Origin: Desemzia incerta
Lineage (GTDB): Bacteria; Bacillota; Bacilli; Lactobacillales; Carnobacteriaceae
Length of the DNA stretch: 64,000 nt
Direction: 5' to 3'
Assembly (NCBI RefSeq): GCF_900115825.1
Contig: NZ_FOXW01000001.1
Span: forward strand, 434,001-498,000
A program made the translations under genes and the position numbers. Shown here piece by piece: positions 39,183 to 60,873 of this stretch. The notes beneath the pieces were generated by a model that did no database searches, was not told where the DNA came from, and worked only from the letters and a program-made list of their open reading frames with translations. Every line of letters begins with the position of its first letter. Position 1 is the stretch's first letter.

Positions 39183-39395
39183 ATACGAAAGATATTGATA
39201 TACGATTTTTGTGTTTTACGCGGCAAGTTTATTCACACTGGAGTAGCTATGGGGCTACAAGGATGTATTAGAGGTTAGGGAATACATTGTATAAATTGAA
39301 ATATTGAAAATGAGTAATAGTTTAGTCAGCCTTAAAATATTGAATATTGATTAGTTAGATAGCCTTCTCTTAAATAGAGAAGGCTATCGTTCATT
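39183..39395 (+). ncRNA. Candidate untranslated RNA, not recognised
   Basis: The stretch behind the promoter at 39148-39176 has no reading frame of note. It contains GTAGC/GCTAC (about 39247-39264) and ends in a perfect 12-bp stem (GATAGCCTTCTC/GAGAAGGCTATC, 39358-39388), followed by the weak T-run GTTCATTTT. A second hairpin, AAAAGCACCG/CGGTGCTTTT, lies at 39403-39434 just before the repeat array. The long outer pairing of 6S RNA was not apparent. Expression is unproven. Confidence 0.35.
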
Positions 39396-39434: not shown

Positions 39435-39724
39435 AAAATGTGAAGGAACTCTGGACGCCCTGTTCCACTCTCTGGTTTTAAACGAGTTGCTCGAGGCAGC
39501 TTACACGTCTATAAGCCGAATTCGACCTGTTAGGAAAAGCACCTAACTGTTCGAATCCTTCTTATATCCGGTAAGCTAAACGCCTCGATCCACTCTCTGG
39601 TTTTAAAACGCGCTGCACAAAGCAGTTTACACTGCCATAAGAGCCATAAGAATAGTAGGTAAAAAGCACCTAATTTTCTTATGGCTCTTATGTTCGGTAA
39701 ACTAAACGCTTTGTTTCACGCTCT
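39431..39724. repeat. Hairpin repeat array 2 (one degenerate short and two long units)
   Basis: This has the same make-up as the array at 447-743: a short unit (39431-39474), then long units at about 39476-39599 and 39600-39724. The first long unit pairs CGAGGC/GCCTCG, CTTAC/GTAAG, TATAAG/CTTATA, ATTCGA/TCGAAT and GTTAGG/CCTAAC. The second pairs ACAAAGC/GCTTTGT, TTTAC/GTAAA, an uninterrupted 16-bp CATAAGAGCCATAAGA with TCTTATGGCTCTTATG, and TAGGT/ACCTA. Units share the TTTTAAAACG opening, the loop (G/T)AAAAnGCACCT, CTAAACG and TCCACTCTCTGG. The array ends against the 3' end of the split tRNA gene. Confidence 0.85.
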
Positions 39725-39762
39725 ACGGTCCTAGAGAGGTTCGAACTCCCGACCTAACGTTT

Positions 39763-40574
39763 ATACTGATAGGTAACGTTCTTCTGCAACATGACTTGCT
39801 CAGAATACTTGTTTTCCCCCAGTCCACACCTTGCAGGCGACTTTCATCGCACAAGGCGTTCCATCAATCAGAATTTCGTTGAAGAGAGAAGAACTCTTAT
39901 GAATGTAAAACACATCTCATTTGCGCAAAGGAAAAATGAATCTATGATACTGGAAATAAATGCATTATGCTTCAACGAAATACTCAACTGACTAGCCATC
40001 TTCCCTCCGCTGGTTGTTATCCCAGGTTCCTCGGTACTACACAGCTGCTGCCGCAACTATTCAACAGCCATTATCCTGCTGTTTAGAACCCTCAAATAGG
40101 AGTTGACAGTTCCTAGTTGCTTCCAACGTTCCGTTATTACTAGCTTTGCCATTAAACTTAGGTGCTTTCTATAAATGTTTCAGCGTTTTTGATCCACAAC
40201 CATTCAATCAAAAACTATTAAGGTCAAATCCTTAATAACAGTTTGTGTTTTCCTAGACAGTCCACCGTGCTTTAATTCATCGAGTGAAGAAACATCCGTA
40301 CGTTCGAAAGTTCGTCAGTGTCAAAACACATTCTCACCTTATTTAATTTATAGCCCTCCGACTACTGGGCAGATGCTTTTCGCCGACTTTACCGAACTTT
40401 TGACAATACCCAACTATTTTTAAGTCTTGCCAATCGGAGATCAAGGTATTTCTCAAGCGGTTGACTTGAGTGTGCTTTTTTCATTTTGCACAATATCGTA
40501 ATAACAGTTAAGCCAAGCGGCTCTTACTTTTTATAAACTTTTTCAAGTTTACTTTGTAGTAAAACGTTGCGTAC
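39763..40574 (-). mobile_element. ORF-less group II intron in tRNA-Arg(CCU)
   Basis: The insert is 812 nt on the minus strand and falls between anticodon position 36 and position 37. It starts GTACG (consensus GUGYG) and ends AT (consensus AY). A branch-point-like A lies eight nt from the 3' end. Domain V is at 39859-39826, exactly 34 nt: lower stem ACGCCTTGT/GCAAGGTGT, a two-nt CT bulge, and GCGAT-GAAA-GTCGC at the top; the catalytic triad reads CGC. AGGAAA at 40254-40249 can act as EBS1 for the exon's TTTCCT (IBS1), and the T before it can pair with the first 3' exon base. Several hairpins fill domains I-IV. No reading frame of reverse transcriptase or maturase size exists, so mobility and perhaps splicing depend on a protein from elsewhere. 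Boundaries could shift by one or two bases. Confidence 0.8.
39826..39859 (-). other. Group II intron domain V
   Basis: 34-nt hairpin: nine-pair lower stem with CGC triad, two-nt bulge on the 3' side, five-pair upper stem and GAAA tetraloop. The upper part is the same as in the yeast and organellar-type sequence (GCGATGAAAGTCGC). Confidence 0.85.
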
Positions 40575-40697
40575 AGGAAACGTTTGCTCTATCCAACTGA
40601 GCTATAGGACCACATGGATAAAATTATTTTCTCATGATTCTAAAAAGTTGTCTAGTGATTTTGAGAGAATTATGATGTCAGTCCATTTTACCTTCAC

Positions 40698-60493: not shown

Positions 60494-60873
60494 CTAAAAG
60501 AGATAGCAAATACGCTTTATCACATTAACTTTAATGAAATAAAAAGTTCAGTTAATAACCGCGTGTTGTTAACTGTGTAAATCGAGACGTATGCTTATGG
60601 AGTAAGCTGACGGATTCGGAATAAATTCTACCCCTACACAAATTGTGATTCACCCCAAAAAAGGTGGTTCCCCCATTTTCCTTTTAGGAAATTCAGCAGT
60701 TCAATCTAAGTTATTTAATTTTTTGCGCAACTTTTCTCTAAAACCCTAACATAAATAACAATAACGGGTCAAAATAAACGCATTATTGATGTTTGAGGTA
60801 AATGGAAAGCAAATATAGAGTGTTTTAGTAAATGTTTGATATAATAAATTATGATGATAAAAAGGAGCAGCTT

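Follow-up and report, generated by a model that had tools for sequence, protein, structure and literature searches.

Our analysis of a 64,000-nucleotide stretch of Desemzia incerta DNA (hereafter the window) makes it very likely that the only tRNA-Arg(CCU) gene detected in this bacterium is interrupted by a spliced group II intron of the D1D4-5 type, a splicing-only element with no cognate maturase. The two halves of the gene lie on the minus strand at 40611-40575 and 39762-39726 with 812 nt between them (Table 1), and the interruption falls in the anticodon loop between tRNA positions 36 and 37. ARAGORN reported zero tRNAs in the unjoined window and recognized the joined exons as tRNA-Arg(CCT) with every arm paired and a complete CCU cloverleaf, both in this genome (G000) and in two relatives (G001 and G005). 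These results bear out a first-pass annotation, made from the letters alone, that had proposed two halves forming a full cloverleaf around an 812-nt insert running from GTACG to AT, which we confirmed and placed at 40574-39763. CCA is absent from the encoded 3' end of the tRNA.

Table 1. Features of the interrupted tRNA-Arg(CCU) gene, in window coordinates
Feature	Position	Strand	Description and basis
Promoter-like hexamers	40626..40654	minus	TAGACA, 17, GAAAAT, with TG before the -10; upstream of the tRNA; weak
5' exon of tRNA-Arg(CCU)	40575..40611	minus	37 nt, first acceptor base to anticodon position 36, ending ...TTTCCT; sequence, ARAGORN
Proposed IBS1	40575..40580	minus	TTTCCT; tRNA positions 31-36, last six bases of exon 1
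Group II intron	39763..40574	minus	812 nt, GTACG...AT, between tRNA positions 36/37, without a reverse transcriptase ORF; cmscan
RF02004 group-II-D1D4-5 match	40347..40512	minus	61.5 bits, E 1.2e-10, gathering 34.5; also in L002 and L003
Proposed EBS1	40249..40254	minus	AGGAAA; predicted hairpin loop (consensus fold), complementary to IBS1 UUUCCU
RF00029 domain V/VI match	39763..39861	minus	51.2 bits, E 4e-7, gathering 40
Domain V helix	39826..39859	minus	GAAA tetraloop; identical in all three homologues; cmscan, consensus fold
Domain VI helix	39765..39823	minus	bulged A at 39770; consensus fold
3' exon of tRNA-Arg(CCU)	39726..39762	minus	37 nt, position 37 to discriminator base, AAACGTT...GGACCG; sequence, ARAGORN

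The surroundings of the gene contain several further elements. The promoter-like hexamers upstream of the tRNA are one of three such arrangements found in the region, versus 3.5 expected by chance; TGAGAAAAT is kept in G001 and TGCGAAAAT in G005. Directly after the tRNA, two similar hairpin-rich repeats of ~125 nt occupy window positions 39460-39725, each ending in AACCAGAGAGTGGA and fitting no Rfam family. A BsrC-like sRNA lies downstream on the minus strand (39213-39300; 62.3 bits) and is also found downstream of the tRNA in G001 (L002 3090-3177), and the window additionally holds a c-di-AMP riboswitch on the minus strand (60578-60708; 78.9 bits).

We assigned the insert by running cmscan against Rfam at gathering thresholds. 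Two separate models, RF02004 and RF00029, matched in the correct order on the same strand, both here and in the two homologues, and the RF00029 match ended exactly at the 3' splice site. The catalytic triad of domain V is CGC, a variant known from other group II introns. Domain VI is nearly identical in the three homologues. A39770, unpaired in the consensus fold, is the presumed branch point in this model; counting back from the 3' splice site it is the 8th base of the intron, within the 7-8 bases typical of the bulged A in group II introns. Group II introns usually start with GTGYG and end with AY; the 5' end here is GTACG in all three genomes, one base off that consensus, and the AT at the 3' end fits it. 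GTGCG is found at the 5' end of two other tRNA introns described below (L051 and L043). No ORF of more than 66 amino acids is present inside the intron, and no reverse transcriptase ORF was found there.

The proposed exon-binding site would recognize the tRNA itself: since IBS1 includes the anticodon CCU, EBS1 would pair with the anticodon. EBS1 occurs at the same place in G001 and reads GGGAAA in G005, forming one G-U pair. Because the AGGAAA 6-mer alone is present in 25% of shuffled introns, the argument for EBS1 rests on its position and conservation. Matching sequences in other tRNA introns make a stronger argument than the 6-mer itself, including GGAAACC in L051 for exon GGUUUCC, UUAUGAG in L049 and L050 for exon CUCAUAA, and UAUGGGC, with one G-U, in L043.

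The same intron was identified in relatives of D. incerta. Among 59 genomes searched, the whole insert was found in G001, of the same genus (86% identical; 818 nt), and in G005, of another genus (79% identical; 806 nt), and only G000, G001, and G005 were carriers among 395 genomes of the order. Two new exon matches from the order-wide search (L101 and L102) were rejected as carriers, both being intact tRNAs. In most intron-free family members, the exons are contiguous and gapless at the same point, and this observation, together with the identical insertion point in G001 and G005, excludes the possibility that the halves arose by chance. The pepS gene, encoding a Pfam M29 peptidase, is no more than a few kilobases away from the CCU tRNA, both in carriers and in several noncarriers, indicating that the locus is the same.

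A profile search with TIGR04416 detected a broken, frameshifted group II reverse transcriptase in G000, an intact one in G001, and none in the draft genome of G005. The presence of these proteins in G000 and G001, and the demonstration in a cyanobacterium that such a protein can act in trans (review PMC4424553), could favor splicing of the tRNA intron with a maturase supplied by a different group II intron of the cell. We consider this explanation unlikely, as the G000 and G001 proteins sit in introns of another RNA class (D1D4-3/D1D4-1 rather than D1D4-5), the G000 protein is frameshifted, and none was found in G005. None of the three carriers yielded a group II reverse transcriptase that matched the class of the tRNA intron, an absence that is not absolute in draft genomes.

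We then consider whether the gene is needed and whether it is alive. A match to an uninterrupted CCU-type tRNA turned up in each of the other 15 family genomes, and the majority of these matches differ little from the joined exons (e.g., TCCTAAACGTTAGG...GTTCGAACC). An intact copy elsewhere in the genome, for which the first-pass annotation had proposed a search, was not found in G000, G001, or G005, and the few CCU-pattern matches in these genomes were unlike tRNAs. The tRNA-Arg genes listed in G000 are acg, ccg, and tct, and likewise in G005; neither has cct. The absence of an intact CCU gene in the carriers is well supported, if not absolute, in draft genomes with part of the tRNA candidates scored, and is weakest for G001; the interrupted gene is probably the sole tRNA-Arg(CCU) gene. 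The first-pass annotation had also held that splicing would be needed to read AGG codons unless another tRNA serves. No other CCU gene was found, but an intact tRNA-Arg(UCU) is present that may read AGG by wobble, so that AGG decoding need not strictly depend on splicing.

Several lines of comparative evidence suggest that the interrupted gene remains under selection. The tRNA exons are nearly identical across the three carriers, and acceptor pair 3-70 is T-A in G000, T-G in G001, and C-G in G005, compensating changes indicating that the two exons, though apart, are still evolving as a single tRNA. Folding the three intron homologues together gave a consensus of 233 pairs with 96.3% of cells paired, and 35 of these pairs have changed on both sides yet remain paired, a level reached in 0 of 500 shuffles and compared with 3-5 for slid partners, the fold being derived from the same three sequences, few in number, that were used to test it. 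At the sequence level, exon conservation, compensatory intron changes, and an invariant domain V argue for splicing. The same observations make it very unlikely that this is a dead gene, into which the intron jumped when the tRNA was dispensable and from which it no longer splices, with tRNA-Arg(UCU) reading AGG. Such an explanation would be compatible with the intact tRNA-Arg(UCU), which might let the cell do without the CCU tRNA, with the rarity of AGG (35 of 607 arginine codons in window ORFs), and with the failure to find a cognate maturase. However, decay at the rate of the flanks would then be expected, whereas the exons, with their compensatory acceptor pair, are almost unchanged across genera and compensatory changes keep the intron helices. 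Finally, a group I intron, suggested by a site adjoining the anticodon that resembles known group I sites in bacterial tRNA genes (PMC4033280 and PMC8450103), can be dismissed with near certainty, because no group I model matched and group II models matched in two separate places. The Rfam covariance check proposed by the first-pass annotation, covering D1-D4 and domain V/VI, thereby upheld its assignment of the insert to group II and not group I.

For the spliced group II intron that we favor, we infer transcription, splicing in the cell, a lariat pathway, and no need for a maturase. The tRNA-Arg(CCU) would be transcribed together with the intron, which would fold into domains I-VI, with EBS1 AGGAAA holding the 5' exon via the anticodon and surrounding bases. 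The bulged A of domain VI would attack the 5' splice site, and ligation of the exons would yield a 74-nt tRNA to which CCA would then be added. The reverse transcriptase may have been lost or never carried here, with the intron kept as a splicing-only element that is probably aided by host RNA-binding proteins rather than by a cognate maturase.

A survey of ~85,000 species genomes, using a pattern of the domain V signature joined to a tRNA T arm, identified nine further loci, all nine of which match RF00029 at the expected place. Rebuilding of the exons gave a tRNA in seven of the nine, which belong to Bacillota, Paenibacillus, Ktedonobacteria/Chloroflexi, and Poribacteria. These are a tRNA-Arg(CCT) interrupted at the same site by 906 nt in a Bacillota MAG (L051); a CAU tRNA with a 2923-nt intron encoding a 693-aa reverse transcriptase in Paenibacillus chibensis (L043); a tRNA-Arg(CCT) interrupted in the D arm by 3005 nt with a reverse transcriptase in Poribacteria (L048); and CAU tRNAs interrupted by 670 nt in Thermogemmatispora carboxidivorans (L049) and by 530-577 nt in Ktedonobacteraceae or Chloroflexi MAGs (L050, L045, and L047). 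In a second Poribacteria genome, L046 shares its 3' part with L048 and is likely an interrupted tRNA, rated no higher because its 5' exon was not seen in the piece examined. L044 is unproven as an interrupted tRNA, with no tRNA rebuilt with the chosen 3' junction. A few extra bases ahead of the TGCG start motif in L044, L045, and L047, all from Ktedonobacteria or Chloroflexi, recall the shifted 5' splice site of the Clostridium tetani intron C.te.I1. Viral contigs gave zero matches to the domain V and T-arm pattern.

The distribution of these introns among relatives varied. In the family of L051, 30 of 33 other genomes match the exons, most as two contiguous pieces. Among 100 genomes of the P. 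chibensis genus, the full-length intron was found only in P. chibensis, and 95 others match the 5' exon region only; G497, a candidate second carrier in Paenibacillus on the basis of split matches, was rejected upon finding two uninterrupted copies. The Thermogemmatispora family has the full intron in six genomes (84-100%), with exon and domain V pieces in several others, and a group II reverse transcriptase was not detected in G401 (Thermogemmatispora) or G397. ARAGORN labels the interrupted Thermogemmatispora tRNA as Met(cat), and in a pattern search of G401 the intact CAU tRNAs resemble fMet and Met, with no Ile2-like gene among them. Judged by sequence, the interrupted gene appears to encode tRNA-Ile2(CAU), which is normally needed for AUA codons; if so, ribozyme splicing would be essential in Thermogemmatispora.

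Introns of the same family also occur in protein genes. G005 carries a second, ORF-less intron in recJ, and ORF-less D1D4-5 introns in recJ were observed at L005 (809-1589), L006, L009, L010, L011, and L111, the hosts being genomes of genus g3 (G008, G010, G013, G015, and G017) plus G005. The site lies inside the DHH motif, at GATTACGATGCA G/GTGCG ... CTAT/ATGG (slashes mark the intron ends), and the domain V was also seen in G003. Most genomes with a recJ intron have no detected group II reverse transcriptase, and the recJ intron of G004 (L171) still encodes one. Like the tRNA intron, the recJ introns (L005, L006, L009-L011, and L111) belong to RNA family D1D4-5 and lack an intron reverse transcriptase, but they interrupt a protein gene, are ~50% identical to the tRNA intron, and fall on another branch of the tree. 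On a plasmid of Paenibacillus polymyxa M1, an ORF-less group II intron (L180 2840-3605) apparently interrupts a DNA cytosine methyltransferase, for which the annotation gives two CDS. We also considered a lineage specialized on tRNA genes, as an initial tree joined the tRNA introns in one group; plasmid introns from protein genes, when added in a FastTree analysis, fell among them, leaving such a lineage unsupported.

Taken together, these comparisons make it reasonably probable that group II introns have colonized bacterial tRNA genes several times, mostly in the anticodon loop with EBS1 pairing in a codon-like manner, and that in some lineages, such as the D. incerta family and Thermogemmatispora, they live by splicing only in a sole tRNA copy without a cognate maturase, paralleling organelle introns; for the apparent tRNA-Ile2(CAU) of Thermogemmatispora, splicing would be essential. 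To our knowledge, group II introns in tRNA genes have hitherto been credited to organelles only. The first-pass annotation knew of no bacterial example and suggested that this one could be new. Our literature search, with subscription papers mostly outside its reach and an earlier report therefore possible, likewise turned up no case of a group II intron interrupting a bacterial tRNA gene, but the D. incerta intron is not unique, as other bacteria carry comparable introns in tRNA-Arg(CCU) and CAU tRNA genes. A 2001 study by Vogel and Hess reportedly dealt with chloroplasts. It is the work cited in one sentence of a review that mentions both group I and group II introns for bacterial tRNA, and the table of the same review gives bacterial tRNA genes with group I introns only (PMC4033280). 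The description of tRNAscan-SE 2.0 mentions only group I introns (PMC8450103). These findings imply a blind spot in annotation, in that a seemingly missing tRNA may be one interrupted by a group II intron.

Bacterial group II introns lie mostly outside housekeeping genes, and ORF-less members are known, an intron-encoded reverse transcriptase being usual but not required (2015 review PMC4424553). The group I introns of bacterial tRNA genes resemble the D. incerta intron in placing a ribozyme at the anticodon loop, sometimes in a tRNA without another copy (PMC8450103), but they are a different ribozyme with group I chemistry and lack domain V and a branch point. C.te.I1 is likewise a group II intron from a bacterium whose genome encodes no related reverse transcriptase, the only one so described (PMC4424553); unlike the intron reported here, which has one pair of splice sites in a tRNA gene, it resides in a protein gene and undergoes alternative splicing. 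Chloroplast trnK, with MatK, and other chloroplast genes similarly harbor a group II ribozyme inside a tRNA gene (PMC4424553). Those introns are organellar and rely on nuclear host factors or MatK, whereas the D. incerta intron resides in a bacterial chromosome in which no matching reverse transcriptase was found. An intron that occupies the one copy of a tRNA gene, in a genome with no reverse transcriptase to match it, would represent an organelle-like, splicing-only life in free bacteria, where maturase-free splicing of such an intron becomes testable.
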